From Mycobacterium cookii (lineage in GTDB: Bacteria > Actinomycetota > Actinomycetes > Mycobacteriales > Mycobacteriaceae): 64,000 bases of DNA. This document shows, piece after piece, positions 27,776 to 47,966 of the stretch (positions are counted from its first letter, which is position 1; every line of letters begins with the position of its first letter). Both the position numbers and the translations under genes were made by a program. Location of the stretch: positions 4,960,001-5,024,000 of the forward strand of contig NZ_AP022569.1 of assembly GCF_010727945.1 (NCBI RefSeq), read 5' to 3'. The notes below the pieces were generated by a model. That model saw nothing but the letters and a program-made list of their open reading frames with translations. It did not search any database and was not told the DNA's origin.

Positions 27776-28142
27776 GGGGCTGAACGGTTTCGACTTCGCG
27801 CATCGAATCAAGGGAAGCGTGCCGGTGCAGGCAAGAGACCACCGTAAGCGTCGTTGCAACCATATAAGCGCCGTTTCAACACAGCGCGACTACGCACTCG
27901 CTGCCTAAGCGACTGCGTGTCTGTCAGACCGGGAGCGCCCTCGGCCCGGACCCTGGCATCAGCTAGAGGGACCCACCCACGGGTTCGGTCGCGGGACCCA
28001 TGGGGACATCAAACAGCGACTGGGATCGTCATCTCGAACTTGTTCGCGTGATCGAGAGATCCGAGTAGAGGCATAGCGAACTGCGCACGGAGAAGTCTTG
28101 AGGGAATGCCGTAGGACCCGGGTTCGATTCCCGGCAGCTCCA
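27776..28142 (+). ncRNA. ssrA: tmRNA (SsrA)
   Basis: The RNA begins GGGGCTGAACGGTTTCGACT and its first seven bases pair with CAGCTCC at 28135-28141, forming the acceptor stem. The T-arm GGGTTCGATTCCC precedes the 3' end. The tag frame reads AVSTQRDYALAA followed by a stop; the M. tuberculosis tag as I recall it is ADSHQRDYALAA, so positions 2 and 4 differ and the degron end YALAA is kept. After the discriminator A the DNA reads CAG, so CCA is not encoded and must be added. The gene is the integration site of the island that follows. Confidence 0.96.
28123..28141 (+). repeat. attL: ssrA 3'-end copy of the island att core
   Basis: TTCGATTCCCGGCAGCTCC, the T-arm and acceptor strand of tmRNA, recurs exactly at 47948-47966 and 49671-49689. 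Tyrosine integrases commonly use tmRNA 3' ends as attB and rebuild the gene on insertion. Confidence 0.88.
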
Positions 28143-28176
28143 CAGTTTGACCAGCGAGAATAGAACGAGTATCGGC

Positions 28177-28207
28177 CACGTCAGCACCACGTCAGCGCAC
28201 CTGACGT
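28177..28207. repeat. Arm-type repeats next to attL
   Basis: ACGTCAG occurs at 28178-28184 and 28189-28195 in direct orientation, 11 bp apart within CCACGTCAGC, and inverted at 28201-28207 (CTGACGT). The cluster lies between the att core and the integrase start, where integrase arm sites are found in temperate mycobacteriophages. Confidence 0.55.
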
Positions 28208-28220
28208 TAAGGTGCGCGGC

Positions 28221-28304
28221 GTGGCCTTTATTCGTGAGCGCACTCACAAGGACGGCACGCCGTATTTCTTGGTGACTTACCGAGTCGGTGGCCGGGGGAG
28301 TCGC
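28221..28304 (+). pseudogene. int: N-terminal stub of a phage-type tyrosine integrase
   Basis: The first 28 codons read VAFIRERTHKDGTPYFLVTYRVGG followed by RGSR, the arm-binding N-terminus common to mycobacterial phage and island integrases. After that the integrase-like character stops and unrelated codons lead to a stop at 28430. The core-binding and catalytic domains (Arg-His-Arg-Tyr) are missing. The stub sits 80 bp from attL, the normal place for int. Confidence 0.72.
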
Positions 28305-28449
28305 TCGAACCCGCTGCTTAGCTGCCTGTTTCATGTACTCGGGTACACGTCGGATTGCCAGAGAGAGAAGGGTCGCTGGCCGTTCGAGGCGGTGGCGCGC
28401 CTAGTAAAGGGGCACCCCTCAACCCCCTGAAGAAGGCGCGCCGTCGTCG

Positions 28450-28850
28450 CTACACAGGCGACACGACTTCGGTTCGCAGGCTTCGGAGTTCGCTTGCAAC
28501 GAACTTAGCGAGCAGCCCGTCGCGACCGGGGGCGTCGCCGCGCATGGTTGTCAACAGCGCGTAGAGCCCGAGCAGGAAGAATACGGCGCTGTGGAAAGCG
28601 TCGACATCTGAGAACACTTCGCCGCGATTACGGGCGCGCATGATCTCAGCGGCCAACAGCACGATGGTGGGGTGGTCTGTCCACTCATCCTCTTCTGGCC
28701 GCGTCGGTGAGAAGTACAGTCCGATCACGTCGCGGAAAAGGGCGCTCCCCCAATGATCTTCGAGGTCTACGACGAGTCTGACGATCTCGTCGAATACGGC
28801 TTGGAGATCGTGCGGAGAGTCCAAGAAGGTGCCGAGTTCTGCCGCAACGC
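28450..28850 (-). pseudogene. C-terminal part of a TetR-type regulator
   Basis: About 130 codons ending at 28450 read like a TetR ligand-binding domain: AELGTFLDSPHDLQAVFDEIVRLV, then DHWGSALFRDVIGLYFSP and FHSAVFFLLGLYALLTTM. The frame stays open further upstream on the minus strand to 29337, but that part has Arg/Pro/Gly-rich shadow composition. The DNA-binding N-terminus is therefore gone. The break falls near 28850, where the other strand begins to look coding. Confidence 0.55.
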
Positions 28851-29793: not shown

Positions 29794-30239
29794 TCACCAT
29801 CCGTGCGGTTAGAGTCTTCCATGCAACAGAGCAAAGGGGTGCTGGCACGGGAGATGACGAACTACCCGTGATGCGTCGCAATCAGCGCGGTCAGTCACGA
29901 GGGCCGGAGAGTAGGACAGCAGTCCTCAGACCGTCGCGTAAGAGGAGAAGTACCGGCAAGTGCAGTACCTGCACGAGGGAGAGAAAGGAAGGAGTTACCG
30001 TCGGATCGCCCGTGATGTTAAGTGTCGGGCGGATACCGCAGTTCACAGCAGTGTCATTAGATGGTAGTGATCTCCTGAAGGGCCGGCGCCCCGGTGCGAT
30101 GGTGTGCACCGGGGGTCCGGCCCTTCTCCATGAGCACAGTGTGGTTTACCGCGGCGCCGGACCCCGGCTATGTAAGTGCAATCTAGGGAGAGGCCGGTAA
30201 TGGCCCGGTAGCCCTATCTCTAGTGCTTTGAAAGGTGTT
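29794..30239. other. Gene-free stretch with one strong hairpin
   Basis: No ORF here has convincing protein character. The stretch contains purine-rich plus-strand sequence (AGAGGAGAAG, GAGAGAAAGGAAGGAG) and the hairpin at 30078-30125. It precedes a MerR-type gene, so part may be its leader or the tail of a lost gene. Confidence 0.5.
30078..30125 (+). terminator. Long GC-rich hairpin
   Basis: AAGGGCCGGCGCCCCGGTGC (30078-30097) pairs with GCACCGGGGGTCCGGCCCTT (30106-30125): 18 of 20 positions match around an eight-base loop. No T-tract follows. It could be an intrinsic-type terminator without U-tail or part of a structured RNA. Confidence 0.55.
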
Positions 30240-30611
30240 GTGGTACAAGCCAAAAACGGTCCTGCCGACAATAAACCGAATGACAAGTTCGATGACGAGG
30301 ACTATCCCGCCTACAGCATGGGCAGCGCCGCCCAAATTTTGGGAACCACCCCAGCGTTCCTGCGGAGCCTCGACGAGGCGAAACTCCTCACCCCACAACG
30401 CTCCGAGGGCGGACATCGCCGCTACTCCCGTTATCAACTGCGGATCGCGGCGAGGGCTCGTGGTCTGGTTGATCACGGCACCGCGCTAGAGGCGGCGTGC
30501 CGCATCATCATCCTCGAAGACCAACTCGCTGAGGCCCAGGCAATGAACGCCGAACTTCACCGCAGCCTCGGCGACCGGCACGCCCCATCCGGCGACGACC
30601 CTAAGCCCTGA
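30240..30611 (+). CDS. MerR-type HTH regulator
   Basis: About 123 residues. The DNA-binding part begins YSMGSAAQILGTTPAFLRSLDEAKLLTP and has the wing RSEGGHRRYSRYQL, typical of MerR. A helical dimerisation segment (EAACRIIILEDQLAEAQAMNAEL) follows, with no Cys ligands for a metal. GTG 30240 is preferred because AAAGG lies just upstream; a TTG at 30228 is the alternative. Similar short MerR proteins occur next to cold-shock genes in actinobacteria, but none is found here, so this looks like an orphan island gene. Confidence 0.72.
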   Translation: MVQAKNGPADNKPNDKFDDEDYPAYSMGSAAQILGTTPAFLRSLDEAKLLTPQRSEGGHRRYSRYQLRIAARARGLVDHGTALEAACRIIILEDQLAEAQAMNAELHRSLGDRHAPSGDDPKP

Positions 30612-30929: not shown

Positions 30930-31107
30930 GACCTGCGGCTTGAGTCTTTGCGCGACGTGTTCGCGGCCGAGGAGCCCCTCGACGAAGTGTTGACCCGCAT
31001 CGCACGCACCGCCCTCGACGCAACAGCGGATACCGATGCCTTGTCCATCACCGTGCTAGCCGGCGGCGACGGTGGGAGCAACGCCCCACGAACTGTGGCC
31101 TATACCG
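30930..31107 (+). pseudogene. GAF-domain fragment
   Basis: The frame after the TGA at 30927-30929 reads DLRLESLRDVFAAEEPLDEV, then LTRIARTALDATADTDALSI and RTVAYTDAH, the start of a GAF domain as found in GAF-ANTAR signalling proteins. No good start codon precedes it, and similarity ends at about 31110 where the XRE gene begins. Most of the GAF domain and any ANTAR output domain are missing. Confidence 0.5.
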
Positions 31108-31374
31108 ATGCACACTGCTGCGACTGGACCACGAACAGTACAGTTCCGGGCGCGGACGTTTGGGGAACGTGTCCGCAATCGTCGCACTGAGCTTGGGCTA
31201 AGTCAGGAGGCCGCGGCAGTCTGTTGTGGCATTCACTGGACGCAACTCGGCAAGGTCGAGCGCGGCCAACGCAGCCTTCGGCTAGAGAACATCATCAAGA
31301 TCGCCGACGGGCTCGATATCGATGCCGGAGAACTCGTGAGCGGTTTGCCCAGGCCTCCGGAGGAATCGGCGTAG
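31108..31374 (+). CDS. XRE-family helix-turn-helix protein
   Basis: From ATG 31108 this gives 88 residues. The HTH spans roughly residues 20-75: FGERVRNRRTELGLSQEAAA, then GIHWTQLGKVERGQRSLRLE and IIKIADGLDIDAGELV, a complete Cro/C1-type domain. There is no effector domain. The start lies exactly where the GAF remnant stops, so the present 5' end may be a recombination product and its first 12 residues foreign to the family. No paired toxin gene is seen next to it. Confidence 0.7.
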   Translation: MHTAATGPRTVQFRARTFGERVRNRRTELGLSQEAAAVCCGIHWTQLGKVERGQRSLRLENIIKIADGLDIDAGELVSGLPRPPEESA

Positions 31375-31537: not shown

Positions 31538-32233
31538 TCAGCCTGGCGTGCGTTCCAGGATCGGCTTGTTCAGCTCCGCCCGCACATGCCGAGTCATCTC
31601 GTCGGCGAGGACCTCAGCGGCACCTGCCTCGATCCCGTCGAGAATCTGCCGCACCACGTCGGCAGGATCCGACTTGGGACTGTCGGAGAACGACGCCATG
31701 TCGGTGTCGACGAGACCCACATAGGCGCCCACGACCTGGACGCCGCGAGGGGCGAGTTCGAGACGCATGGAGTCCGTGGCGCTCCACATCGCAGCCTTCG
31801 ATACTCCGTAGCTCGCTCCGACGGGCAACCAGGCCAGTACCGACGCGACGTTCACGATCGCCCCCCTCTTCGCAACGATCTGGTCGGCGAAGGTGGAGGC
31901 CATCGCGAGCGGTCCGAAGAGGTTGGTCTCCAACTCATCTCGCAGCCCCGAGGTGTCTCGACCCAGGACCGACGCTCCGCGCACGATGCCGGCGTTGTTG
32001 ATCAGCACGCTGACGTCCGGTGCCGCCTCCGCTGCGGCCGCCACCGACTGTGCGTCTGTGACGTCGAGTGTCAGTGCGACGACCCGCGGGTCCGTCGTAT
32101 CGATCTGCCCCGCGTCGCGGGCGGCGGCGTAGACCTTGGCCACCCCGCGATCAAGCAACTGGGTCACGTAGTGGCGTCCCATGCCGCGATTGGCTCCGGT
32201 AACGAGGACGGTTTGGTTAAGCAGTGTGGTCAT
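31538..32233 (-). CDS. Short-chain dehydrogenase/reductase
   Basis: This 231-residue classical SDR has the cofactor motif TGANRGMG (12-19), the NNAG motif (79-82), S131 and the catalytic pair Y142/K146 in SYGVSKAA. It should interconvert an alcohol and a ketone with NAD(P)H. It is the last gene of a minus-strand operon with an alpha/beta-hydrolase and a small membrane protein, preceded by the GTAWACC-type operator at 33501. A different SDR ends the mirror-image operon at 38.1-38.9 kb. Confidence 0.88.
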   Translation of the reverse strand: MTTLLNQTVLVTGANRGMGRHYVTQLLDRGVAKVYAAARDAGQIDTTDPRVVALTLDVTDAQSVAAAAEAAPDVSVLINNAGIVRGASVLGRDTSGLRDELETNLFGPLAMASTFADQIVAKRGAIVNVASVLAWLPVGASYGVSKAAMWSATDSMRLELAPRGVQVVGAYVGLVDTDMASFSDSPKSDPADVVRQILDGIEAGAAEVLADEMTRHVRAELNKPILERTPG

Positions 32234-32263
32234 GACGTTCTCCTACTTGATGTTTGGGGACAT

Positions 32264-32650
32264 TCAGTGGTCGGCGATGCTTCGTTGCCAGGCCAGGATG
32301 ATGGGTATCCCGATGAGCTCGAGCGCGGTCGCGGCCACGATGACCGGATGTGGGCGCCCGGCCTGCCGCCACGACCACAGCCGGGCGAGACCACCGACGC
32401 CGATGGTGGCTTCGGCTAATGTCGCGGTGGGTGACTGCTCGATGCGTGACAATTGCGACCAGATGATTGGCGCTACTGCGAGTTTGAAGACGTTGGCGTA
32501 TCTGAGGGCGCTGTCGACGGTTGGCGCTACGGCGGGTGAACCGCCGGGAACTGCTTGAGGGCCCCTCAGGATTTCTAGGGCCGCACTTCCCGCGGGCAAT
32601 CCGGCCAGCAGCCCCAGCGTCCACTGCAACCTTCGTCTGCTGCGGCTCAT
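32264..32650 (-). CDS. Small membrane protein, probably DUF4345-like
   Basis: This 128-residue protein has several hydrophobic stretches ([51 protein letters not shown]) and the loop [24 protein letters not shown], a layout I associate with the DUF4345 membrane family. Its ATG overlaps the stop of the upstream hydrolase gene by four bases. No catalytic function is known for such proteins. It could anchor or assist the hydrolase/SDR pair, which is conjecture. Confidence 0.68.
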
Positions 32651-33483
32651 TGCAGGAACTCGCTCGCTTGGGCGACGAACTCGTCGTGGAACTGGAAGAT
32701 GCCGCCATGTCCGGCGTCGGGGTAGATCTTCAACTGCGCGTTCGGGAACCGACGGGCCATGTCGTGTGAGTTGCTGGTGGGCACCATACGATCATCGTCG
32801 CCATTGACGACGAAGACGGGCTGGCGGACCGTCGACAGGTCTGCGGGCTGCTGGACACCCCAGGCGTGAATGGCCTTCAGCTGCATGCGGAAAGCGCTGA
32901 TGGAGATCGACTTGTCGCGATCGGTTGAGCGCTCCTTGAGCCGGTTGACGAAGCGCTTGGCTTCCGCCTTTCCGTTCGCCGTTTTGGTGAAGAAGAGATT
33001 CTCCTTCGGATCCTTGCCCGTCAGCAGGGCTTTTGTACTGTCGCTGATCGTTACTCGGGTCACCTTGTCGATGCCCACGCCTCCCGCCGGTCCGGTTCCG
33101 GCCAAGATGAGCTTGCGCACCAGCTGCGGCTGTTGCTTGACGATTTCTTGAGAAACCATGCCGCCCAACGAGAAACCGAGAAGGTCGACCTGCTCGAAGC
33201 CCAACCCACTGATGAAGGCGATGGCGTCGCGTGCCATCGCGGCAATCGTGTCCGGCGCCTTCCCGCCAGACGCGCCGACGCCGCGGTTGTCGAAGGCGAC
33301 GACGTGACGGTGGGCGGCGATGCCGTCAACGACCCGCGGGTCCCAGTTGTCCAGCACGGCCGCGAGGTGGTTGAGGAAAATCACCGGCACGCCGGTGGCG
33401 GTACCGAGTTCGCGGTACGCAAAGGTGGTGCCACCGATGTCGATGGTCTTGGTCGGCGTGTCCCGGTAGGTCGTCGTGCTCAT
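32647..33483 (-). CDS. Alpha/beta-hydrolase, first of two island paralogs
   Basis: This 278-residue hydrolase has the nucleophile S105 in GFSLGG, the acid D230/D231 in NGDDDRMVP and H259 in DAGHGG. The oxyanion strand reads FLNHL, and [10 protein letters not shown] is shared with the paralog at 36 kb. Start ATG 33483 lies 17 bp from the operator at 33501-33518. It heads the hydrolase / DUF4345-like / SDR operon and is divergent from a TetR gene. The family includes haloalkane dehalogenase- and haloperoxidase-like enzymes; the substrate is unknown. Confidence 0.88.
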
Positions 33484-33500
33484 GTGGTTGCCACTCCTTG

Positions 33501-33570: not shown

Positions 33571-33577
33571 TTTCGTC

Positions 33578-34183
33578 ATGGACACGAACGCGCAGACGCA
33601 ACCGGCGTCCGGACGTGGCGGTCGGGGTGCGCGGCAACGAATCCTCGACGCCGCCATCCGGCTCTTCTATCAGGAGGGCATCAATGCCACCGGGGTGGAA
33701 CGCCTGGCTACTGAGGCGTCGGTCTCCAAACGCACTCTCTATCAGCACTTTCCGAGCAAGGCGGCCGTGGTGGAGGAGTATCTCCGCTACATTCGGCAGG
33801 GCGTCGGCGATCCGATCCGACCCGATCCCGCCGTCGACAAGCGCAGCCCCAGGGTTCGCATCTTGGCTCTCTTCGAGACTCCTCCTGCGGGCGGACTTAT
33901 GCGCGGTTGCCCGTTCCACAACGCGGCCGTCGAGGCCGCTGACGGCATGCCCGAAGTTCACGACATCGTCGAAGCGCACAAACGGAACTACATCGACGGA
34001 CTCGTCACGCTGGCTCGAGCGGCGGGCGCAGCCAACCCCAGAATGCTCGGCAATCAACTCGCCGTGCTCTTCGAGGGCGCGGCCGCGCTGTCAACCTCCC
34101 TGAACGAGCCCGAGCCCTGGACGCACGCCCGCAAGGCTGCCCAGACCCTCGTCGACGAGGCGGTCAGCCAAGGTTCGGCTTGA
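33578..34183 (+). CDS. TetR-family regulator, first of two with shared operators
   Basis: This 201-residue protein has the HTH at about residues 39-59 (recognition helix SVSKRTLYQHFPSKAA). The ligand domain includes the motif GGLMRGCPFHNAAVEA, the pattern of TetR proteins that respond to reactive or small organic compounds, with one Cys that could act as sensor. It is divergent from the hydrolase operon with two operators between. Its last 20 bp overlap the convergent quinone-reductase gene. Confidence 0.88.
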   Translation: MDTNAQTQPASGRGGRGARQRILDAAIRLFYQEGINATGVERLATEASVSKRTLYQHFPSKAAVVEEYLRYIRQGVGDPIRPDPAVDKRSPRVRILALFETPPAGGLMRGCPFHNAAVEAADGMPEVHDIVEAHKRNYIDGLVTLARAAGAANPRMLGNQLAVLFEGAAALSTSLNEPEPWTHARKAAQTLVDEAVSQGSA

Positions 34184-35177
34184 CCGTGACGACGACCTTC
34201 CCCTTGGCCCGTCCCGACTCGACGTAGGCCATCGCGGCATTGGTCTCCGCGAACGGGAACACCTTGTCCATGACCGGGCGAATGACGCCGGAGTCGATCA
34301 GTGCGGTGATGTCCTGGAGTTGTTCGCCATTGGCGCGCATGAAGAGGAAGAAGAAGCGGACGCCGAGCCGGCGGGCCTTTCTCCGCGTCCCAAAACTCAG
34401 AAGTCGGAGCGCCAGTCGTACGTACCATGCAGCTCCGATCTCCCCACCGAATACGTGATCGGGCGGTCCGGAAATTGAGATCAGCGTGCCGCCGGGCTTC
34501 AAGACTCGCAGTGACTTCTGCAGTGCCGGAGCGTCCTGACTGTGCAGCACCACGTCGTAGTCATGCAGAATCGTCTCGAAGTCCTGAGTCTTGTAGTCGA
34601 TCACGACGTCGGCACCGAGACTCTTCACCATGTCGAAACTGGTTGAACTGCACGTCGTGGCCACGGTTGCACCCAGATGCTTCGCCAACTGGATCGCGAT
34701 CGTGCCAACCCCACCGGTCCCCGCCTGAATGAATACTTTCTGCCCTGGCTTCACGTCGGCCTGTTCGACGAGCGCCTGCCAGGCGGTCAGGCCAACGAGG
34801 GGAACGGAGGCGCCCTCAGCCATGGTGAGGGCCGTCGGCTTGAACGCCACGTCGCGTTGATTCATCGCGATGAACTCCGCGAACGTGCCGATTCGGTCCT
34901 TGTCCGGGCGCGCGTACACCTCGTCACCGGGCCTGAATTTCTGCACTCGGGGGCCGACCCGCGTCACAACTCCGGCCACGTCGTTGCCCATGATCAGCGG
35001 AAGGCGATAGGGGAGAACCAGTTTGAACTCGCCGTCTCGGATCTTGGCGTCGAGCACGTTCACTCCGGCCGCGTGCACCTCGACGAGCACGTCGTCATCA
35101 CCGACGAGCGGTTCGGGCATCTCGGCCGCCCGAAGGCTGCTCTTCTTCGCATACTTGTCGAGCGTGAATGACTTCAT
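34164..35177 (-). CDS. Zinc-free MDR oxidoreductase (NADPH:quinone reductase-like)
   Basis: From ATG 35177 this gives 337 residues, preferred because AAGG sits nine bases upstream; ATG 35186 is the alternative. GroES-like N-terminal half with HAAGVNVLDAKIRDG and NDVAGVV; the Rossmann motif is AGTGGVGTIAIQLAKHLGA. No Zn-binding Cys cluster is present. It should reduce quinones or enones with NADPH, possibly protecting against reactive intermediates. Operator 3 (35194-35211) lies 16 bp upstream of the start. The gene converges and overlaps with the TetR gene by 20 bp. Confidence 0.87.
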   Translation of the reverse strand: MKSFTLDKYAKKSSLRAAEMPEPLVGDDDVLVEVHAAGVNVLDAKIRDGEFKLVLPYRLPLIMGNDVAGVVTRVGPRVQKFRPGDEVYARPDKDRIGTFAEFIAMNQRDVAFKPTALTMAEGASVPLVGLTAWQALVEQADVKPGQKVFIQAGTGGVGTIAIQLAKHLGATVATTCSSTSFDMVKSLGADVVIDYKTQDFETILHDYDVVLHSQDAPALQKSLRVLKPGGTLISISGPPDHVFGGEIGAAWYVRLALRLLSFGTRRKARRLGVRFFFLFMRANGEQLQDITALIDSGVIRPVMDKVFPFAETNAAMAYVESGRAKGKVVVTVKPNLG

Positions 35178-35193
35178 CAGGCGCATCCTTGGA

Positions 35194-35256: not shown

Positions 35257-35838
35257 TCACTTTGCCGTGGGCCGCTTACCTCGCGCGGTAGGCCGATTCG
35301 CGGCGATGAGCTCCTCCAAGTGATGGGAGACCTGTTCGAGCGGCTTGGTCGATCGCGCCGCGCGCGAGAGGATGACAGCCCCTTCGACCGCGGCGACTAT
35401 CGTCGTCGAAAGCGACTGTGCCACCGAACGTTCGATTTTCTCGCCGATCAATCGGTCGGTCAATAACTCCTCCCAGGTGGCGAATGCCTTAGCGGCGGCG
35501 GCGGCCGCCTCCGGGGCCTCGTCCCGAGCGCACGCCGCCGCCACGATTGGGCAGCCACCCTCGAAGTTAGAGCTCACCAGGACCTCGCTCCACATCCGGG
35601 CGAATGCGGCGACCGGATCAGGCTCGTCCACGTAGTCGCGCAAGATGGCGGCCATCTCGTCACCTGCGGAACGCGTTGCGGCGGCAACGAGTTCGGCCTT
35701 TCCGCCGGGGAAATTCAGGTAGATCGAACGCCGGGTCACCCCGCTGGTGTCGAGAATCTGCGCGATGCCCGTGCCGGCCACGCCGTGGCGCTGCATCAGG
35801 GTCGCGGTGGCTGAGGTGAGTCGATCGTGTACCCGCAT
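35257..35838 (-). CDS. TetR-family regulator, second of two with shared operators
   Basis: From ATG 35838 this gives 193 residues; a TTG at 35847 lies inside operator 4 and is less likely. The HTH is at about residues 24-44 (GVTRRSIYLNFPGGKAEL). The ligand domain carries NFEGGCPIVAAA, a Cys-containing motif in the same place as in the other island TetR. It is divergent from the second hydrolase operon across operators 4 and 5. Recognition helices of the two TetRs share the RxSIYxNF/RTLYxHF frame, compatible with near-identical operators. Confidence 0.87.
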   Translation of the reverse strand: MRVHDRLTSATATLMQRHGVAGTGIAQILDTSGVTRRSIYLNFPGGKAELVAAATRSAGDEMAAILRDYVDEPDPVAAFARMWSEVLVSSNFEGGCPIVAAACARDEAPEAAAAAAKAFATWEELLTDRLIGEKIERSVAQSLSTTIVAAVEGAVILSRAARSTKPLEQVSHHLEELIAANRPTARGKRPTAK

Positions 35839-35846
35839 GGTTTGCA

Positions 35847-35864
35847 ATATACCAATCGGTTTAC
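35847..35864. promoter_or_regulatory. Island operator 4
   Basis: ATATACCAATCGGTTTAC, nine bases upstream of the second TetR gene's ATG. Same arm pattern as operators 1-3 with one deviating first base. Confidence 0.7.
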
Positions 35865-35954: not shown

Positions 35955-36803
35955 ATGACCACGAAGACGACGACGTGGAAAGACGCTCCGACCCGGACGA
36001 TCAACGTCGACGGCACTCCATTCGCCTACCGCGAACTCGGCACCGGCTCCGGGGTTCCGGTGGTGTTCCTGCACCACCTGATGGCAGTGCTCGACGACTG
36101 GGACCCACGAGTCATCGACGGCTTCGCGGCCCACCATCGCGTGATCGCCTTCGACAACCGCGGTGTCGGTGCAACCGGCTCCAGCGTGCCGCCGACCATC
36201 GAGCAGATGGGTACCGATGCAATAGCCTTCATCCGCGCCATGGGCCTCGACAAAGTCGACCTGCTCGGATTCTCTCTTGGCGGCGGCGTCGCCCAGATGG
36301 TCGCCCTCCAAGCGCCGGAACTGGTGCGGCGCATGATCCTGGCCGGCACCGGTCCCCGCGGCGGCGGCGGCATCGACAAGATGGGCACGATCGTCGGGGG
36401 TGCCTACATCAAAGCTCTGCTCACCCGAAGCGACGCCAGGAACTTCCTGTTCTTCCCGCGCGACGCCGAGGGCAAGCGCGCCGCCGCGGCTTACTTCTCC
36501 CGCCTCAAGGAACGCACCCACGACCGCGACAAGGGCATCTCGATACAGGCCCGAATCGCACAGATCAAGGCCATCCGGCACGCCGGGCTCAGTGAACCCG
36601 ACGACCTGTCGGTCCTCACCATGCCCGCCTTCGTCGCCAACGGCGACCACGACCTCATGGTCGACAGCGCCCACTCAGCCGACATGGCGCGGCGCCTGCC
36701 CAACGCGACGTTGAAGATCTACCCCAACTCCGGACACGGCGGAATCTTCCAGCACCACCAGACCTTCGTGCCCGACGCCCTGCAATTCCTCGCCGCCGAA
36801 TAA
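35955..36803 (+). CDS. Alpha/beta-hydrolase, second island paralog
   Basis: This 282-residue protein is clearly paralogous to the hydrolase at 32.6-33.5 kb. They share [22 protein letters not shown], the nucleophile elbow DLLGFSLGG (S107), ILAGTGP, RLKER, NGDHDLMV with the acid, and H261 in SGHGG. The conserved middle lid (NFLFF, RLKERTHDRDK) suggests the same type of substrate. It heads a plus-strand operon with an old-yellow-enzyme and an SDR, controlled by operators 4 and 5. The acceptor for hydrolysis is not known. Confidence 0.88.
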   Translation: MTTKTTTWKDAPTRTINVDGTPFAYRELGTGSGVPVVFLHHLMAVLDDWDPRVIDGFAAHHRVIAFDNRGVGATGSSVPPTIEQMGTDAIAFIRAMGLDKVDLLGFSLGGGVAQMVALQAPELVRRMILAGTGPRGGGGIDKMGTIVGGAYIKALLTRSDARNFLFFPRDAEGKRAAAAYFSRLKERTHDRDKGISIQARIAQIKAIRHAGLSEPDDLSVLTMPAFVANGDHDLMVDSAHSADMARRLPNATLKIYPNSGHGGIFQHHQTFVPDALQFLAAE

Positions 36804-39651: not shown

Positions 39652-39685
39652 TGCAGCCACACACCTCCTGTTCGGGGGGCCTCGA

Positions 39686-41305
39686 TCAACGACGCGCGTC
39701 GGCGTTACCAGCATCTGCCGTTGCAGGGATCTGAGCCATCGCGTACTCGGCGAGGGCGGTGATGGTCAGTGCTGGGTTGACGCCGGGATTGGCCGGTATC
39801 GCCGAGCCGTCACAGACGAGCATGTTGTGGTAGCCGAAGACGTGCAGATTCTTGTCGATAACACCGCTGACGGGGTCGCCGCCGATGACGGCACCGCCGA
39901 GCAGGTGCGCGGTGGAGGGAATGTTGCCAAGCGCCTCCAGCACGTTGCTCTGGGCGATGCCCCCGGTGCGATCGGCCAGCCAGCGGGCCGCCTGATTGCC
40001 CATGTCGATGTAGGTGGGATTCGGGTTGTCAGCGTTCTGTTGGGTGGACAGTTTATAGCCGTGTCCCCACCGGCGCTTGCGGGCGCGGAAGGTGATCGCG
40101 TTGTCGCGCGACTGCATCACCAGCAGCATCACCATGCGTCGGCTCCAGCCCACCGGCCATAGTGTCTTGAGCCAGCGCAGCGGGTGCCGCACGATCTCGG
40201 CGATCCACTTCAGCGGCCGCGTCACTCGGGTGCCGTCGCCGACCAGCACGGTGTAAAGCAGGCTCAGCATGTCGGCGTTGGGTCCGTAGGTGAGCATTTC
40301 GACGTGGGTGTCGGGGTCGACGTGCACGCTGCTGCTGGCGGTGACGTCGCGCCAGCTGCCGCGGTCTTCGGGCAGCAGAACGGTCAACACGGATTCGCTG
40401 TTGGTGCGCACCAATTCACCCAGCCGATCACTGATCCGCGGCAGCGAACCACCGTGTTTGCAGCTGGCCAGCAGTTCATTGGTGCCGAGTGCTCCGGCCG
40501 CGAAGATCACCCCGCGGGTCGTGTAGCTCTGCAGCTCGCGTCGTCGTCTGGGCCCGGGGTGTTCGGTGGTAACGCGATAGCCGTCGCTGCCGTCGGGATT
40601 GCCCAGCGGGACGACGTCGATCACCTGGTGTTCTGGCAGGATCTGCACGCCGCGCTTCTCGGCAAACCACAGGTAGTTCTTGGTCAGTGAGTTCACCGCC
40701 CCGACGCGGCAACCCACCATGCAGGCACCGCAGCGAGTACAGCCGGTGCGGTCGGGGCCTTCGCCGCCGAAGTAGGGGTCGGGCACGGTTTTGCCAGGTT
40801 CGCCGAAGAACACACCGGTGGGTGCGCGGCTGACGGTGTCCTGTGTGCCGAAGTGCTCACCCATCTCCCGGATCCATTGCTGGTGAACGGAATCGAACGG
40901 GACCGGGGCCGCGCCGAGCATCTGCTCGGCGGTGTCGTAGTGCGGCGCCAACAGTTGCTCCCACGGTCCAAGACCGCTCCATTGGGCGCCTTCGAAGAAT
41001 TCTTTTTTGGCGCGATAGAGCACACCGCCGTAGACCAGGCTGCCGCCGCCGACGCCGCTCTGTGAGGGAAAGAAGACGTGCCGAAACGCCGACGTGCGCA
41101 TGATCCCCAGCTTGCCCAGTCGGGGCGCCCAGGTGTACTTGTCGGATTGCCAGGCCGAGGTGGGGAGGTCCGTGGGCTCGTAGCGGCGGCCGCGTTCGAG
41201 GACTCCAACGCGAAAGCCCTTCTCCGAGAGACGTAATGCGGAGACACTTCCCCCAAAGCCCGATCCGATGATCAACCAGTCGTAGTCGAAATCGGTGGTG
41301 CTCAC
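39686..41305 (-). CDS. GMC-type FAD oxidoreductase, cholesterol-oxidase-like
   Basis: This 539-residue flavoprotein starts at GTG 41305, which overlaps the ligase stop (GTGA). FAD motif is GSGFGG (14-19). SQSGVGGGSLVYGGVL and the C-terminal HLLGGAVIGGDP plus NPGVNPALTITALAE are the GMC/ChoD signatures. A four-Cys run C189-x2-C192-x2-C195-x3-C199 (GCTRCGACMVGC) is present, as in ChoD relatives. It should oxidise a sterol-like or other secondary alcohol. Linked ligase, hydrolase and crotonase suggest a lipid side-chain or steroid-type pathway, which is inference. Confidence 0.85.
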   Translation of the reverse strand: MSTTDFDYDWLIIGSGFGGSVSALRLSEKGFRVGVLERGRRYEPTDLPTSAWQSDKYTWAPRLGKLGIMRTSAFRHVFFPSQSGVGGGSLVYGGVLYRAKKEFFEGAQWSGLGPWEQLLAPHYDTAEQMLGAAPVPFDSVHQQWIREMGEHFGTQDTVSRAPTGVFFGEPGKTVPDPYFGGEGPDRTGCTRCGACMVGCRVGAVNSLTKNYLWFAEKRGVQILPEHQVIDVVPLGNPDGSDGYRVTTEHPGPRRRRELQSYTTRGVIFAAGALGTNELLASCKHGGSLPRISDRLGELVRTNSESVLTVLLPEDRGSWRDVTASSSVHVDPDTHVEMLTYGPNADMLSLLYTVLVGDGTRVTRPLKWIAEIVRHPLRWLKTLWPVGWSRRMVMLLVMQSRDNAITFRARKRRWGHGYKLSTQQNADNPNPTYIDMGNQAARWLADRTGGIAQSNVLEALGNIPSTAHLLGGAVIGGDPVSGVIDKNLHVFGYHNMLVCDGSAIPANPGVNPALTITALAEYAMAQIPATADAGNADARR

Positions 41306-42765
41306 GTCGGCTCGCTGGAGTGGGCTGCGCGCAACGGGCCCTTGTCGGTCTTGCCGACGGGGTTCTTGGGGATGGCGTCGACCACGATGATCGACGTGGG
41401 CCGCTTGTAGCCGGCAAGCTTGCGGACGCAGAGTGCTTGCAAGGCTTGGGAATCGATGGCGGCTCCCGGTCGCGGGGCGACGTAGGCCACCACGATCTCG
41501 CCCCACTTCTCGTCGGGCGCTCCGATGACCGCGGCCTCGAGCACCGTCGGGTCGGCGGCCAGGACGTCCTCGATCTCGCGGGGGTAGATGTTCTCCCCGC
41601 CGCGGATGATCATGTCCTTGGAGCGGCCGGCCAGACTCAGATAGCCGTCGGCATCACGGTGACCGATGTCGCCGGTGTGCAGCCAGCCGTCGACGATGGT
41701 GCGGGCGGTATCTTGCGGGCGGCCCAGATAGCCGCGCATGAGGTTGGGCCCGGCGATGAGCACCTCACCATCGACGCCGATGGGCACCTCGGCGCCGGAC
41801 TCGTCGACGATCCGGATCCGCTGACCGGGGAAGGGCTTGCCCACCGTTCCGGCGCGTGGATCCTCGATGGGGTTGATGGTGGAGGCGCAGGTGCCTTCGG
41901 AGAGTCCGTAGCCCTCGATGAGCGGAAACCCGTAGCGGGTTTCGAAGCGGCTCAACAACTCTGAGGACGCGGGTGCGGCGCCGCAGATCGCAAACCGCAG
42001 CGACGAGGTGTCGGGGGTGACGTTGACCGGCAAGGCGGCGAGCATGGTGTAAATAGTCGGCACCGCGCTGAAATAGGTGGGCCGCTCGCGTTCGACGACA
42101 TCGAAAAAGGTGCGGGGGTCGAAACGGTCGGCGATGACGACGCTGGCGCCGGCCAGTAGCGGCGTGACGATGCTGACCACGATGCCGTTGACGTGAAACA
42201 GTGGCAGAATCAGCAGGCACCGGTCGGCCGGTCCGATCTGCAGAGCCTGGCGGCCCATGTCGGCCATCGCGTCCAGGTTGGCGTGGTCGAGCATGACGCC
42301 CTTGGGTGTGCCGGTGGTACCGCTGGTGTAGATCAGCAGCGCCAGCGCCGAGGGATCATCGTGTGGTGGTTGAACGGGGCCCACCGGGTGGCTGGCCAGC
42401 TGCGCGACGGTCAGGGTGAGTACATCGTTGGTGGCCGTGGCGTCTTCGTCGTCGGTCACGAGTAGGCGTGCCCCGGAGTCGGCGAGTTGTCGGGTGACCT
42501 CCTCGCCGGTGAGGCTCGGGTTGACCGGTGTGACCGCGGCACCCAGGCGCCAGGCCGCGAACAGCAGGACCACGAACTCGACGCGATTGCGCAGCTTGAC
42601 CGCCACCACGTCACTGACGCCGATCCCGTTGTCGTGCAACAGCTGTGCAGCCGTATCCACCCGTTCGAGGAGTTGTCCGTTGCTCAGTGCTTGACGAGCA
42701 TCGGCGACGGCCGGGCCGTGGGGATCGTCCTCGGCGCGACGATCGGCCAGCGACGAGAGCTTCAC
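41302..42765 (-). CDS. Acyl-CoA synthetase / AMP-dependent ligase (FadD-type)
   Basis: This 487-residue adenylating enzyme has the P-loop YTSGTTGTPKG (146-156), the GYGLSEG motif, DGWLHTGDIG and RGGENIYPREIE. The catalytic Lys lies in KNPVGKTDKG near the C-terminus. It should activate a carboxylic acid as the acyl-CoA. The ATG overlaps the stop of the hydrolase gene by one base and its stop overlaps the oxidase start, so the genes are tightly coupled. The length is short-to-medium for FadD proteins, which fits aromatic or medium acids as well as fatty acids. Confidence 0.9.
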   Translation of the reverse strand: MKLSSLADRRAEDDPHGPAVADARQALSNGQLLERVDTAAQLLHDNGIGVSDVVAVKLRNRVEFVVLLFAAWRLGAAVTPVNPSLTGEEVTRQLADSGARLLVTDDEDATATNDVLTLTVAQLASHPVGPVQPPHDDPSALALLIYTSGTTGTPKGVMLDHANLDAMADMGRQALQIGPADRCLLILPLFHVNGIVVSIVTPLLAGASVVIADRFDPRTFFDVVERERPTYFSAVPTIYTMLAALPVNVTPDTSSLRFAICGAAPASSELLSRFETRYGFPLIEGYGLSEGTCASTINPIEDPRAGTVGKPFPGQRIRIVDESGAEVPIGVDGEVLIAGPNLMRGYLGRPQDTARTIVDGWLHTGDIGHRDADGYLSLAGRSKDMIIRGGENIYPREIEDVLAADPTVLEAAVIGAPDEKWGEIVVAYVAPRPGAAIDSQALQALCVRKLAGYKRPTSIIVVDAIPKNPVGKTDKGPLRAAHSSEPT

Positions 42766-43679
42766 TACGCCGCTCCTGCGGGGTTCAGGTGTCGGGTCAA
42801 GAACTCGACTTGATCACTGACCAGCGCCTCGAACGGCTCGCCGAGGTAGAACTCGAAGTGCCCGGCGTCGTAGTGCTTGATCTCGCCGCGGGGCGCGGAG
42901 CGTGCATACCGTTCGGTCTCCGTGGGAGGAGTGACGGTATCGGTATTGCTGATGCAGAACAGGATGGGGAAGGTGATCTTCTTTGCCGCGCGTCCGGGCC
43001 GGTATGCCATGATCGTCGGCGCCACGCGGGCGGCGACTTCGTTGCGGAACGTCGTATCGGGCGGCAGCAGCGCCTGGTAGCCGGGCAGGGCGTCGGGGGC
43101 GTTCATCAGGGACAGTGACCCAGGGGGACCGGCCAGCGTGATCATCGCAGGTGTCCTGCGACGGGCGATCGAGACGTAGTCCCTGGCGACCAACGGCAGC
43201 ACCTTCAGTGAGGCGACCGGCCCCAGCGCGAGTGCCGAAGCGAGCCCATCGGTGAACGGGCATTGGGCGACAGCGGCTTTCATTTCGGGGTGACGCGACG
43301 CGACGGTGATGGAATGCCCCCCGCCAAATGAACTGCCCCACACCGCGACCCGCGTACCGTCGACGTCGCGTCGACCCTTCACGTACGCGATGGCGGCATC
43401 CCAGTCCGCGAGTTGACGTTTGATCGACAGCAATTGGCGGGGCTGGCCGGTGCTGTCGCCGAAATGCCGGTAGGTGAACGCCAGCGCGGCGATGCCCGCT
43501 TGGGCGAACCGCTCGGCGAAGGCGTCCAGGCGCATCTCGCGGGTGGCACCGAGGCCGTGCCCGAGGATGACCACCGGCGGTGACGGCACTCCTTCGGGCA
43601 AGTAGAGCCACGCGGCGCAGGTGTCCTTGCCGGAGGTGAACGATACGTCGAGACGGGTGAAGGATGGCGTCGAACTCAT
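42765..43679 (-). CDS. Alpha/beta-hydrolase with acyl-peptidase/dienelactone-hydrolase features
   Basis: This 304-residue hydrolase has the oxyanion strand ILGHGLGATRE, nucleophile S117 in WGSSFGGGHS and a C-terminal base in YDAGHFEFY. NTDTVTPP supplies the acid. The hydrolase core resembles dienelactone hydrolase/acetyl-xylan esterase relatives. Start and stop each share one base with the neighbouring genes, so it is embedded between the crotonase and the ligase. It may release a free acid that the ligase then activates. Confidence 0.85.
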   Translation of the reverse strand: MSSTPSFTRLDVSFTSGKDTCAAWLYLPEGVPSPPVVILGHGLGATREMRLDAFAERFAQAGIAALAFTYRHFGDSTGQPRQLLSIKRQLADWDAAIAYVKGRRDVDGTRVAVWGSSFGGGHSITVASRHPEMKAAVAQCPFTDGLASALALGPVASLKVLPLVARDYVSIARRRTPAMITLAGPPGSLSLMNAPDALPGYQALLPPDTTFRNEVAARVAPTIMAYRPGRAAKKITFPILFCISNTDTVTPPTETERYARSAPRGEIKHYDAGHFEFYLGEPFEALVSDQVEFLTRHLNPAGAA

Positions 43680-44656
43680 CAGCGGGTCTCCGCCGAGGCC
43701 GTGGCGCTCAGGGCGGGCACCCGGCCCGTTTGCAATGCCTGGGCGTACGTGTCGTCGTGGTAGAGCGGGAGCTCGCCGACGGAGTCGATGTCCGCGAGGT
43801 ATTGCAGCATCAGGTGCTGACCCTCCTTGGACTGATCGGTGCCCAGGAACTCGGTCCGCTCGAAGTGCAGACCTTCCGACAGCGACATCGACCCCCCGAA
43901 GTAGACCGAGCGCTTGATCGCCTCGACGGAACCTCTGGTCCGCTTGCCGAAGTACTCGGCCACCTCGACCGCGCGCGCCACGACGTCTCCGGGCTCGACG
44001 ACTTCGTCCACGGCTCCGTTGGCCAGCGCCTGCGCGGGGGTGAATGGCTTGCCCTCCAAAATGGCGACGAGCGACTTGTGGGTGCCGATCAGTCGAGTCA
44101 ACCGCTGGCTGCCGCCACCGCCGGGCATGATGCCCAGGAGCACTTCAGGCTGGCCGATGAAGTAGTCCCCGTCGGCCATGATCCGGAGGTCACACGCCCA
44201 GGCGAATTCCGCGCCAAGGCCCAGGGCCGAACCGTTGAGGGCGGCGACGAAGATGACGCCGCTGGCGTTCATCCGCAGAAACGTCGCGTGCAGTCGGTCG
44301 AGCTGGGCGACTCCGCGTAGCGGGGTCTTTTGCACCACCGGATCCAGGACGCGGGCCCGGTCCATGCCGCGGGCCAGGCGCAGCGCGGCCGACGCGCTGC
44401 GCCGGCTCAACTCCGGTACGGCGGCGCCCTCAGCTTGCAGCCAACGCACGTCGGCGTGGCTGACGAACCGGCCCTCACGAGCGCCGGTGAACACCACGGC
44501 GTGCACGCCGGGATCGCTGTCAGCCCGGTCCACCAGCGCTTCGAGTTGATCGGCGATCTGGATGCCGAACAGGCTGTGCGGCCCGCCGTCGACGCGCACG
44601 ACCAGGACCGTTCCGCGGTCCTCGATCACGAGCTTGCCCTCCACCTGCTGTGTCAT
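43679..44656 (-). CDS. Enoyl-CoA hydratase/isomerase (crotonase) family protein
   Basis: This 325-residue crotonase has the oxyanion-hole segment NGSALGLGAEFAWACD and GQPEVLLGIMPGGGGSQRL, in which E171 matches the first catalytic Glu of enoyl-CoA hydratase. At the place of the second catalytic Glu the alignment gives Ile (KSLVAIL), so a plain hydratase reaction is uncertain. It is 40-60 residues longer than the usual family member. It heads the minus-strand operon ending in the TetR gene at 38.9 kb. Repeats at 44678-44719 lie just upstream. Confidence 0.82.
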   Translation of the reverse strand: MTQQVEGKLVIEDRGTVLVVRVDGGPHSLFGIQIADQLEALVDRADSDPGVHAVVFTGAREGRFVSHADVRWLQAEGAAVPELSRRSASAALRLARGMDRARVLDPVVQKTPLRGVAQLDRLHATFLRMNASGVIFVAALNGSALGLGAEFAWACDLRIMADGDYFIGQPEVLLGIMPGGGGSQRLTRLIGTHKSLVAILEGKPFTPAQALANGAVDEVVEPGDVVARAVEVAEYFGKRTRGSVEAIKRSVYFGGSMSLSEGLHFERTEFLGTDQSKEGQHLMLQYLADIDSVGELPLYHDDTYAQALQTGRVPALSATASAETR

Positions 44657-44677
44657 CGGTACCCTCTCGATTGGTTT

Positions 44678-44947: not shown

Positions 44948-45559
44948 TCAGGTTGATTGAGGATCGTCGACGATGGCGATGGCGGCGGCAAGCCCTGCCT
45001 CGAGCGCTTGTTGCTGAGAATGGCTGCCGGGAACCATTGCACGCGAGACCGTGACCGCACCGACCATCAATGCGACGAGGCTCCATGCACGTTGCTGCGC
45101 CCGCTGGGGATCGCCGCCGAGAGCGTTGGCAATTCGGGTGGCAAAGACCGTCGCCTGACGATCGTAGATTTCTCGCACGGCTGGATGTCTGGCCACATCT
45201 GCACTCAATGCAGGCATGACGCAACCCGTTTCGACGTCTGCAGCGTGCGTGTCGCCGATGTAGTAGGCCAGAAAGTCTTTCAGTCCATCGATGTCGTCAT
45301 TCGGCGAATCGGGACGGGCGGAGAACTGTCCGAGATACGTCTCGATGATCGCCGCGAGCAGCCCGGCTTTGTTGGTGAAGTTCGAGTAGACGGCGCCGGA
45401 GGTGACGCCAGCAGCGCTGGCGATGCCGTCAACACCGATTCCGTTGAAGCCGTTGACCTTCATCTGTTCAACCGCGGCTTGTAGCAGCGCACCGCGAAGC
45501 TTCTTTGTGTGGTCCGGCGGATACCTCACGCCTGGCACCTTCCCGTCGATTGACAACAT
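44948..45559 (-). CDS. TetR-family regulator
   Basis: From ATG 45559 this gives 203 residues; the frame is open upstream but that part overlaps the divergent SDR gene. The HTH is at about residues 42-62 (GVTSGAVYSNFTNKAGLL), and the ligand domain includes ETGCVMPALSADVARHP. It is divergent from an SDR gene across an operator-like palindrome at 45565-45592. It may control that SDR and, from its position, possibly the crotonase operon 0.3 kb away. Confidence 0.86.
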   Translation of the reverse strand: MLSIDGKVPGVRYPPDHTKKLRGALLQAAVEQMKVNGFNGIGVDGIASAAGVTSGAVYSNFTNKAGLLAAIIETYLGQFSARPDSPNDDIDGLKDFLAYYIGDTHAADVETGCVMPALSADVARHPAVREIYDRQATVFATRIANALGGDPQRAQQRAWSLVALMVGAVTVSRAMVPGSHSQQQALEAGLAAAIAIVDDPQST

Positions 45560-45564
45560 GTCTT

Positions 45565-45592
45565 CGTTATCGTAGCGTACGTTACCATAACG
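45565..45592. promoter_or_regulatory. Nested palindrome between TetR and SDR genes
   Basis: Outer arms CGTTAT (45565-45570) and ATAACG (45587-45592) enclose GTAGCGTACGTTAC (45572-45585), itself a palindrome with one mismatched pair. The site lies five bases from the TetR start and 83 bp from the SDR start, typical of an autoregulatory operator. Confidence 0.65.
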
Positions 45593-45674
45593 ATCGTAAT
45601 TAATGTGAATCCGGGCGGATCTTCTTGCATTCCGCTTCCTGACCTGTCGATGTATCGACGAGAGAAGAGATGAA

Positions 45675-46499
45675 ATGCCTTCTGTTTTGGTTACCGGCGC
45701 CGGTAGGGGCATCGGTTTGGCGATCACTGAGCACATGAGCGCGCGGGGCTGGGATGTCTATGCCACTGCTCGCTCTGAAGCCGCGCTGCATAGCCTGAGT
45801 CGGATGCCCAATGTGCATCCGATCCCGCTGGACATCACCAACCGCTCCGATATCGCAGCGCTGCCGGCCCGATTGCCCGCAGGTCTCAACGGCCTGGTGA
45901 ACAGCGCCGGGATCATCGTCAACGGCCCGGTGGAGGGACTGTCGCTGGATGACCTGACCGGCCAGCTCGACGTCAACGTGATCGCCCAGATCGCGGTGAC
46001 CCAAGCGGTCCTGCCGATGATCCGCGAAGCCGGTGGCCGGCTGGTGTTCATGTCCTCGGTCAGCGGGTTCATCACGACCCCGGGCACCGGCGCCTACAGC
46101 GCCTCGAAGTATGCGATCGAATCATTGGGTGATGCGCTGCGAATCGAGCTGCGGCCGTGGAAGATCCCGGTCTCGCTTATCGAGCCCGGCCCGATCCGTA
46201 CCGATATGTGGGGCAGCGCCCTTGACGAGTACGACCGCATGACCAAACAACTGTCCGAGGCGCATCGCCAGCTGTACGCATCGCATCTGGCCGGCACCCG
46301 CAAGTTGTTGGGGCGGATGCAAAAACTGGCCGCCGATCCCAAGAAGGTCACCAAAGCGGTCAACCACGCGCTGACATCGCGGCGCCCGAAACGCCGCTAC
46401 CTGCTCGACACCCTCAGCCGCGGCCAGAAGCTCACCTTCGCCGCCACCCCCACCGCGGTCACTGACGCAATCCTGGCGGCCGCCACCACCTCAAAATGA
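45675..46499 (+). CDS. Short-chain dehydrogenase/reductase
   Basis: This 274-residue SDR has TGAGRGIG (7-14), the NSAG motif in place of NNAG, S128 and Y141/K145 in AYSASKYAIES. The EPGPIRTDMWG stretch after the active site resembles the 17-beta-hydroxysteroid/retinol-dehydrogenase-like group. The Arg/Lys-rich C-terminus (RRPKRRYLLDTLSRGQKL) would suit a membrane- or lipid-associated protein. It is transcribed alone, divergent from the TetR gene. Confidence 0.88.
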   Translation: MPSVLVTGAGRGIGLAITEHMSARGWDVYATARSEAALHSLSRMPNVHPIPLDITNRSDIAALPARLPAGLNGLVNSAGIIVNGPVEGLSLDDLTGQLDVNVIAQIAVTQAVLPMIREAGGRLVFMSSVSGFITTPGTGAYSASKYAIESLGDALRIELRPWKIPVSLIEPGPIRTDMWGSALDEYDRMTKQLSEAHRQLYASHLAGTRKLLGRMQKLAADPKKVTKAVNHALTSRRPKRRYLLDTLSRGQKLTFAATPTAVTDAILAAATTSK

Positions 46500-46635
46500 G
46501 AACCCGCCCGTGCTCGTCATCGAGCCCTGTCCGCACGCTGGTGCGCGCGGGTTCGAGCACGTTGTCGGCGTATCACCCAGTGCAACAGCATGTTTCATAA
46601 CCCTTAGATGCGGTCGTAATGGCTAGGAGCCAAAA

Positions 46636-47840
46636 ATGAATGCCACAGCGTCGGTGAAGGAAGAGATCGGTTTTCGCGCCCATGACGGGGTGATGCTGCG
46701 GGGGTGGGTGGTGACGCCGGACTCCGAGGGTCCGCATCCCACCATCGTGATGAGCCCGGGCTTCACGGGATCGATCACCCGGCTGGGAGATGTCGCTGAT
46801 GCATTTGTCAGCCATGGGTTCGCCGTTCTGATGTACGACCAGAGAACGTGCGGCCGACCGAAGGGCATCCGCCGGCCAATGAGCGCAACGAGCAGCGCCG
46901 GCGTGACGAGCACCTGAGCCCCGCCCCGACCTATCACACGGCACCGGCGATGTGGTCGATGTGCGCTCAGGCGATCGGCGCGACCACCGTGATGATGGAA
47001 CGTTTCGACGCGCAACAGGCGCTCGATGCCATACAACGGTACGGAGTGACGCACGCACAGTTCGTTCCCACGATGTTCGTGCGCATGTTGCGGTTGCCCG
47101 ACTCGACGCGGATGGGTTTCGACCTGTCCACATTGCGGCGGGTGGTCCACGCGGCAGCGCCGTGTCCGCCAGACATCAAACGGCAGATGATCGACTGGTG
47201 GGGCCCGATCGTCGACGAGTATTACGGCTCGTCTGAGGGCGCAGGTATTTCGTTCATTCGCGCTGAGGATTGGCTGAAGCGGCCGGGCTCGGTGGGCAAG
47301 CCGATGTTAGGCACCCCGCACATCCTCGACGAACACGGCAACGAACTCGGGCCAGGCGAGGTCGGCGAGATTTACTACGAAGGTGGTTACCCGTTCGAAT
47401 ATCTCAACGACAAGGCAAAGACCTCGTCAGCGACCAGCGCCGAAGGCTGGGTGACCGTGGGGGACGTCGGCTACGTCGATGACGACGGTTATCTGTTTCT
47501 GACCGACCGCCGCCACAACATGATCATCTCGGGCGGGGTGAACATTTACCCGCAAGAGGCCGAACACGTTCTTATTAGCCACCCACTCGTCGTGGATGCG
47601 GCGGTGTTCGGCATACCCGACGACGAGTTGGGGCAGTCGGTGAAGGCCGTGGTCGAACTTGTCGATCCTTCTAACGCCGGTGACGAGGTGGCGTCGACCT
47701 TGATGTTCTGGGTACAGGGGCGCCTTGCCAAGTACAAGTGCCCGCGTTCGATCTCGTTCGAGGAACGGCTGCCGCGCACCGACGCAGGCAAGCTCTACAA
47801 GCAGGTCCTCATCGAGAAGTATTCGGTCAAGGCATGTTGA
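46636..47840 (+). pseudogene. Chimeric remnant: alpha/beta-hydrolase N-terminus fused to a frameshifted FadD ligase
   Basis: An ATG at 46636 opens an alpha/beta-hydrolase start (GFRAHDGVMLRGWVVTPDSE, then VMSPGFTGSITRLGDVADAF) that ends at about 46845 in LMYDQR. The same frame then runs into CGRPKGIRRP, the tail of a ligase P-loop (normally TSGTTGRPKG). The ligase continues in the next frame as PANERNEQRRRDEHL, SPAPTYHTAPAMW, EYYGSSEG, GWVTVGDVGYVDDDGY and IISGGVNIYPQE, with the Lys in RTDAGKLYKQ, to 47840. So a deletion joined two genes, and a frameshift follows. The ligase lacks its first roughly 150 residues. Confidence 0.78.
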
Positions 47841-47947
47841 TGCCATCAACACCTTCCGTGTATCCGCAGGTCGTTTTGCGTACTTTCGCGTCGTTTCCCG
47901 TCGCGGAATCCAGTGTTTCCGCAGCTCAAGGCTATTTATGCGCCTGC

Positions 47948-47966
47948 TTCGATTCCCGGCAGCTCC
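47948..47966 (+). repeat. attR1: second copy of the ssrA 3' end
   Basis: Exact 19-bp copy of the tmRNA 3' end, followed here by ACCA, so this copy encodes the CCA terminus that the present ssrA lacks. That is what the displaced original attB end would look like after insertion. It marks the right end of the 19.8-kb island. Confidence 0.85.

Follow-up and report, generated by a model that had tools for sequence, protein, structure and literature searches.

In a 64,000-nucleotide stretch of the Mycobacterium cookii genome (contig NZ_AP022569.1, positions 4,960,001 to 5,024,000; hereafter the window), ssrA, the gene for transfer-messenger RNA (tmRNA), is followed on the same strand by two further copies of its own 3′ end. 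These three core copies (att1, att2 and att3) delimit two segments, their junctions carry differing arms, the left end retains part of an integrase, and an insertion-free arrangement occurs in relatives. We consider this stretch very probably an array built up by accretion in the tmRNA gene. The border of the island thereby moves outward from where an initial annotation had placed it, and the island probably records three integrations.

Core copies and the outer junction

The tmRNA matches positions 1–374 of the 374-position Rfam model, and a regenerated target gene is thus present. The last 21 bp of ssrA recur exactly as att2, which is the longest exact match between the gene end and the region around 47.9 kb; the initial annotation had recognized this repeat, giving its length as 19 bp. 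The third copy differs from the gene end at one position. Across the 5.32-Mb genome, a single contig, these three are the only cores with one mismatch or none, and 100 shuffled windows yielded no core match at up to three mismatches. More than one fragment of the target has been displaced downstream, namely the copies at 47948 and 49671. It had also been argued that the ACCA closing the right copy, and encoding a CCA that the present ssrA lacks, marks the original gene end. We dropped this argument because CCA directly follows the ssrA gene itself in six of 20 relatives and is not diagnostic.

The outer junction was located by comparing ssrA flanks in 20 related genomes (genomes are cited below by G numbers and loci by L numbers). 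In G036, a terminator-like hairpin comes after ssrA, with the open reading frame (ORF) of a universal stress protein (usp) at +95. The corresponding window ORF starts 101 bp past att3 and encodes a protein 71.5% identical to that of G036, and the DNA of the two flanks aligns at 81% identity from ∼30 bp after att3. G030, the best match for the smpB–ssrA stretch (83%), has the hairpin directly 3′ of ssrA; in the G030 sequence compared, which reaches 15.4 kb beyond ssrA, the only window protein matched is that of the gene upstream of ssrA. Because the sequence after 49691 follows ssrA in relatives, the insertion-free junction is ssrA joined to 49692, which in turn implies two added segments, 28144–47968 (segment 1, 19.8 kb) and 47969–49691 (segment 2, 1.7 kb). 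By these alignments, both segments are inserted in ssrA. An outer border at 47966, as first proposed, is contradicted by the third copy and by the relatives’ flank, which starts at that copy, and the empty site predicted from it, with ssrA running straight into the DNA that follows 47970, does not occur in the relatives. Beyond the core and the immediate arm, the DNA of 47969–49691 has no match in the 20 ssrA flanks. The nearest genomes (G030, G071, G117, G094 and G083) likewise lack the cargo in their ssrA flanks, save for matches at or below ∼30% identity.

Junction arms and the integrase remnant

Over its opening 160 bp, segment 1 shares 78.75% identity with the left end of the G319 ssrA island; the arm repeats CACGTCAGCACCACGTCAGC lie here, at 28177–28196. 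Next to this arm lies the N-terminus of a tyrosine integrase, which shares 63% identity over 30 amino acids (aa) with the integrase of the G338 island and 55.6% over 36 aa with phage integrases (e.g. those of Spartacus and Fruitloop; E-values 9e-6 to 4e-5). The initial annotation, which had placed an integrase N-terminus and arm repeats inside the left end, is borne out here. An intact integrase was not found in the island, where only the N-terminal remnant is present. Elsewhere in the M. cookii genome, a search found only distant integrases (25–34% identity) and no close relative of the remnant, so that the array looks fixed at present. Full-length or long related integrases lie within ∼110 bp to the right of ssrA in seven other genomes (G117, G220, G085, G322, G338, G233 and G134).

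The two ends of segment 1 are of different kinds. An arm sequence, GTCAGCAC, is present at both ends of the G338 and G319 islands and only at the left end in the window, in which no remnant of the missing right arm was detected at up to three mismatches. The arm left of att2 instead carries a motif, here called alpha, that resembles the phage attachment site (attP) arm of the cluster K1 phage Anaya. The alpha motif at 47911–47928 has two mismatches in 18 positions (control frequency 0.16% for three or fewer) and is the only match in the window, against 0.06 expected. A further, beta-type motif lies left of att3. The three junctions look like three attachment types, the left one that of G319 and G338, the one at 47948 that of K1 attP and the one at 49671 a third. 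Segment 1 is probably a fusion of the left end of one kind of element with the right end of another, because its two ends carry different arms.

These features suggest a likely history. Elements with phage-type tyrosine integrases would have recombined several times in the T-loop/acceptor part of ssrA, and each integration would swap in an element-borne ssrA end, leaving the gene whole and pushing older ends downstream. The junction at 49691 would be the oldest visible one. Later elements would have brought a single hydrolase gene and a catabolic cluster, and deletions would then have taken out most of the integrase, probably also bringing the left end of one element together with the right end of a different one.

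Probable repeated capture at ssrA across the genus and competing explanations

We surveyed 396 genomes of the genus, M. cookii included, for the ssrA-end core with one mismatch allowed. The core was matched in 382 genomes, and by a hand tally 111 carry at least two copies, which suggests that the ssrA end is a recurrent site of gene capture; a reversed-pattern control matched a single genome. In a draw of 118 genomes, at least two copies were present in 30 of 114 genomes with any tmRNA match, 3 of 58 for tRNA-Lys(TTT) and 6 of 70 for tRNA-Asn (Fisher p = 8e-4 and 4e-3 against tmRNA, respectively), where the tRNA controls matched just 58 and 70 of the 118 genomes and some of the additional tRNA-Asn matches could represent genuine gene duplicates. 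Of 27 further core copies on the contig with ssrA, 24 are on its strand and downstream of it, at distances of up to 77 kb, a count that omits genomes with the extra copy on another contig or with ssrA not placed. Neighbouring copies are often close: 50 of 108 spacings in 81 genomes are at most 4 kb and 30 are at most 2 kb, counting the first listed places per genome and omitting six pairs more than 120 kb apart and copies on other contigs. Judged by these core copies, layered insertions occur at the same spot in many related species.

We fetched 65 segments, picked partly for shortness. Downstream cores in the fetched loci (n = 75) have an alpha arm in 28 cases, a beta arm in 15 and neither in 32, with control frequencies of 0.7% for alpha and 0.3% for beta. 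Among segments of at most 4 kb, 23 of 52 show neither motif, and 5 of 52 match one of three integrase queries, all of one kind, so that other kinds would be missed. Of the 51 short segments in the ORF count (window omitted), 43 hold one to three mechanically called ORFs that often nearly fill them. Pfam identified no integrase in 20 chosen short-segment ORFs, which include PIN-domain proteins, a kinase, an aldose epimerase, a GGDEF protein and others. Short segments of G125, G172, G288 and G209 (L123, L129, L142 and L131) contain a PIN-domain ORF preceded by a small ORF, as scanned with Pfam in the first three, and the PIN-toxin pair of G209 and G288 is 93.7% identical over 743 bp in different surroundings. 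A usp block in G080 (L074) is 96% identical over 1.36 kb to that of G036 (L073); it stops exactly before a core in G080, and G036 has no core there. Many genomes (L155, L136, L124, L125 and others) also share a conserved stretch of ∼0.4–0.65 kb after ssrA or the last core, with no consistent ORF. Besides tmRNA, an Rfam search of this stretch in seven loci gave two sub-threshold matches, both at the gene end only.

Several points weigh against an accretion array. The empty site is seen in other species only. In G080, usp lies between two cores, so the flank taken as original may be an older insertion, and the ancestral status of usp is weakened accordingly. The third core itself carries a mismatch, and its arm match is modest, with five mismatches in the 17 positions of the beta motif at the usual offset (control 0.34%) and a motif string derived from the same data that it scored. 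The alpha scorer also counts as alpha the inner part of the G338 and G285 arms, whose outer arms differ, and the fusion claim therefore rests on the outer arms. Finally, G284 (L101) has a related catabolic cluster ∼1.7 kb from ssrA and no second core copy.

We weighed accretion against simpler origins of the repeats. A single 19.8-kb island, inserted once between 28143 and 47968 next to a third copy left by an unrelated older event, would account for the exact repeats that bound this interval and for attachment-type arms at both of its ends. However, the right end lacks the arm sequence of the left end and has a K1-like arm in its place, and the relatives’ flank starts at 49692 rather than 47969. 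We consider this explanation quite unlikely and set it aside on the third copy and the flank. The initial proposal is supported as far as a foreign metabolic island at ssrA goes, but not in its view of a single 19.8-kb unit whose right end is the displaced original gene end. That the extra copies reflect chance or misassembly is improbable in the extreme: the reversed pattern matched a single genome of the 396, whereas 111 contain multiple core copies, extra copies lie overwhelmingly downstream of ssrA on its strand (24/27), and the M. cookii genome is one contig. The assembly that best fits such an artefact is G334, with nine copies within 22 kb of one contig (C635; L118 and L119; at most two mismatches; segments of 1–8 kb), which is fragmented (∼1020 contigs) and partly contaminated (6%).

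Within an accretion array, the origin of the short segments, 47969–49691 included, can be read in two ways. We lean towards these segments being leftovers of tandem large islands shrunk by core-sparing deletions. Segment ends share a 10-mer just modestly more often than mismatched pairs (18/66 versus 13.8%), both arm motifs are absent from 23 of 52 short segments, an integrase remnant sits at the left end of a short G236 segment, and M. cookii keeps no close relative of the integrase. Many short segments, however, have little room outside their open frames, which number one to three in 43 of 51, and some blocks end exactly at cores (at both ends in G244/G257 and G260/G253, and in the usp block of G080 compared with G036). 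The conserved left arms at many cores (alpha in 28 and beta in 15 of 75, against controls of 0.7% and 0.3%), the blocks ending at cores and the PIN-toxin pair common to G209 and G288 would instead fit non-autonomous units, cis-mobilizable or cassette-like, moved in trans by K1-type integrases. We find this second origin doubtful, as the matched-arm signal is weak, to the point that we discarded the 10-mer statistic as support for it, and the M. cookii genome offers no integrase partner. Rather unlikely in our estimate, too, is its broadest form, in which the mycobacterial tmRNA 3′ end would be a genus-wide, integron-like loading dock: integrase-less segments of 0.6–4 kb, often one gene or a VapBC-type pair, bearing tmRNA-end cores and attP-type arms, would be gained, lost and rearranged by integrases provided in trans by K1-type phages and islands. 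If short segments were mobile in trans, a single family of phage integrases would account for a recombinase-free spread of single genes, toxin–antitoxin pairs and catabolic clusters among mycobacteria. Island-finding methods that require an internal integrase would miss such segments.

The proposed accretion array has partial counterparts among known systems. The closest published parallel is found in the ssrA islands of Dehalococcoides, which, according to PMC3146451, are tandem, bounded by ∼20-bp copies of the ssrA end and loaded with catabolic cargo; 15 of them lack an integration module and were suggested to be cis-mobilizable. In that description the recombinase is a large serine enzyme (DsiB), whereas here the remnants and relatives are phage-type tyrosine integrases, and the genus-level set here has many 0.6–4 kb segments, unlike Dehalococcoides as portrayed there. 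No recombinase family, the serine DsiB/DsiA type included, was found among 30 Pfam-scanned ORFs of 28–50.7 kb, and the remnant is of tyrosine type. The same source describes cis-mobilizable elements as flanked by attachment sites, devoid of their own recombinase and in tandem with related elements. Segment 2, bounded by attachment sites without its own recombinase, shares this layout, with tmRNA as the target. The tmRNA gene is a known prophage site in mycobacteria, as stated in PMC10654092 and PMC3203893. The latter reports that cluster K1 mycobacteriophages integrate there through a 24-bp attP core equal to the tmRNA 3′ end, with a terminator right of the core. Their attP arm resembles the arm left of att2, and K1-type integrases are 57–59% identical to the integrase beside ssrA in G117 over 85% of the latter. 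A K1 prophage fits the right arm of segment 1 at att2, but the left end fits another type, the integrase fragment is nearer the G338 island type, and the 30 scanned ORFs include no phage structural gene. Islands of the Islander kind integrated in tmRNA have ends marked by a regenerated target gene and a displaced fragment, according to PMC4383910; unlike these, the M. cookii array has more than one displaced fragment and a broken integrase. In comparison with the attC sites of an integron cassette array, the site that recurs here is the tmRNA end. A literature search by titles and abstract openings found no account of such ssrA arrays in mycobacteria.

Cargo of the two segments and its relatives

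Genes were called mechanically as open frames filtered by codon-position G+C, and the 30 ORFs noted above were scanned with Pfam (Table 1).

Table 1. Features of the ssrA array and its flank (window positions)
Feature	Position	Strand	Basis or remark
ssrA (tmRNA) gene, complete; insertion target	27776..28143	+	ARAGORN, Rfam
Core copy 1 (att1), ssrA 3′ end	28123..28143	+	exact repeat
Left arm of segment 1, repeats at 28177–28196	28144..28208	+	arm search
Tyrosine integrase N-terminus remnant, ∼30–36 aa	28209..28310 (about)	+	protein matches
MerR-family regulator	30228..30611	+	Pfam
HTH_3 DNA-binding protein	31072..31374	+	Pfam
Short-chain dehydrogenase	31538..32233	-	Pfam
DUF4345 protein	32264..32650	-	Pfam
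Alpha/beta hydrolase	32647..33483	-	Pfam
TetR regulator 1	33578..34183	+	Pfam
Zinc-binding dehydrogenase / quinone oxidoreductase-like	34164..35186	-	Pfam, NCBIfam
TetR regulator 2	35257..35847	-	Pfam
Alpha/beta hydrolase	35955..36803	+	Pfam
NADH:flavin oxidoreductase (OYE-like)	36818..38062	+	Pfam, NCBIfam
Short-chain dehydrogenase	38065..38940	+	Pfam
TetR regulator 3	38944..39714	-	Pfam
GMC oxidoreductase, cholesterol-oxidase-like	39686..41506	-	Pfam, NCBIfam, PDB
AMP-binding acyl-CoA ligase	41302..42765	-	Pfam
Alpha/beta hydrolase	42765..43679	-	Pfam
Enoyl-CoA hydratase/isomerase	43679..44656	-	Pfam
TetR regulator 4	44948..45736	-	Pfam
Short-chain dehydrogenase	45675..46499	+	Pfam
Hydrolase, N-terminal piece	46636..46917	+	Pfam
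AMP-binding ligase, C-terminal part	46848..47840	+	Pfam (profile 201–376 of 384)
Right arm of segment 1, alpha type, like attP arm of K1 phage Anaya	47886..47947	+	motif 47911–47928
Core copy 2 (att2)	47948..47968	+	exact repeat
520-aa putative secreted hydrolase/lipase-like protein, sole gene of segment 2	48018..49580	-	weak PGRS match only
Left flank of core 3, beta-type arm motif	49644..49670	+	5 mismatches of 17
Core copy 3 (att3), 1 mismatch; outer junction	49671..49691	+	mismatch search
Flank with terminator-like hairpin, directly after ssrA in relatives	49692..49791	+	flank comparison
Universal stress protein (usp) gene; adjoins ssrA in G036	49792..50688	-	Pfam, flank comparison

Segment 1 carries the four TetR regulators that the initial annotation had counted as a minimum, plus one MerR and one HTH_3 gene. 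Its GMC enzyme scores 538 bits in NCBIfam, below the cut-off of 850, and matches PDB entry 1coy with an E-value of 5.7e-22. As the GMC enzyme is cholesterol-oxidase-like, it is plausible that the cargo acts on a lipid-like compound. As called, the GMC ORF runs into its neighbour, so that the true start codon is probably further in. Segment 1 has overlapping pieces of a hydrolase and of an AMP-binding ligase at its right end (46636–47840), as after a deletion.

For the single gene of segment 2, an identity as LipY was dropped, since its protein matches PGRS just weakly and nothing in the PDB at an E-value of 0.001. DNA related to this gene is present in 134 of the 396 genomes, M. cookii included, and the best relative (G325) has no core copy within 20 kb around it. 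Further downstream in the window, 50882–53044 is a 720-aa ORF whose first half is without a Pfam match and whose P450 match covers residues 324–710 only.

The catabolic cluster, queried as 39000–44700, has matches at an E-value of 1e-100 or better in 58 of the 396 genomes (M. cookii included), many of them over the ligase gene only. We followed up 19 strong matches for location. Two lie on the ssrA contig, no more than 15 kb from the gene (G284 and G188), two at most 4 kb away from a core copy, on contigs where ssrA is not visible (G334 and G118), four more than 200 kb from ssrA (G157, G187, G270 and G223), and 11 on other contigs or at locations that could not be resolved; in G188 and G334 the cluster is shared only in part. 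The cluster thus travels; its occurrence at ssrA exceeds, in this small sample, what a random location would give. Genes related to the cluster are also found on Rhodococcus opacus plasmids. A record titled Pseudomonas sp. GV085 (L115) contains the enoyl-CoA hydratase, hydrolase, ligase and GMC genes in the same order, at 55–76% identity.

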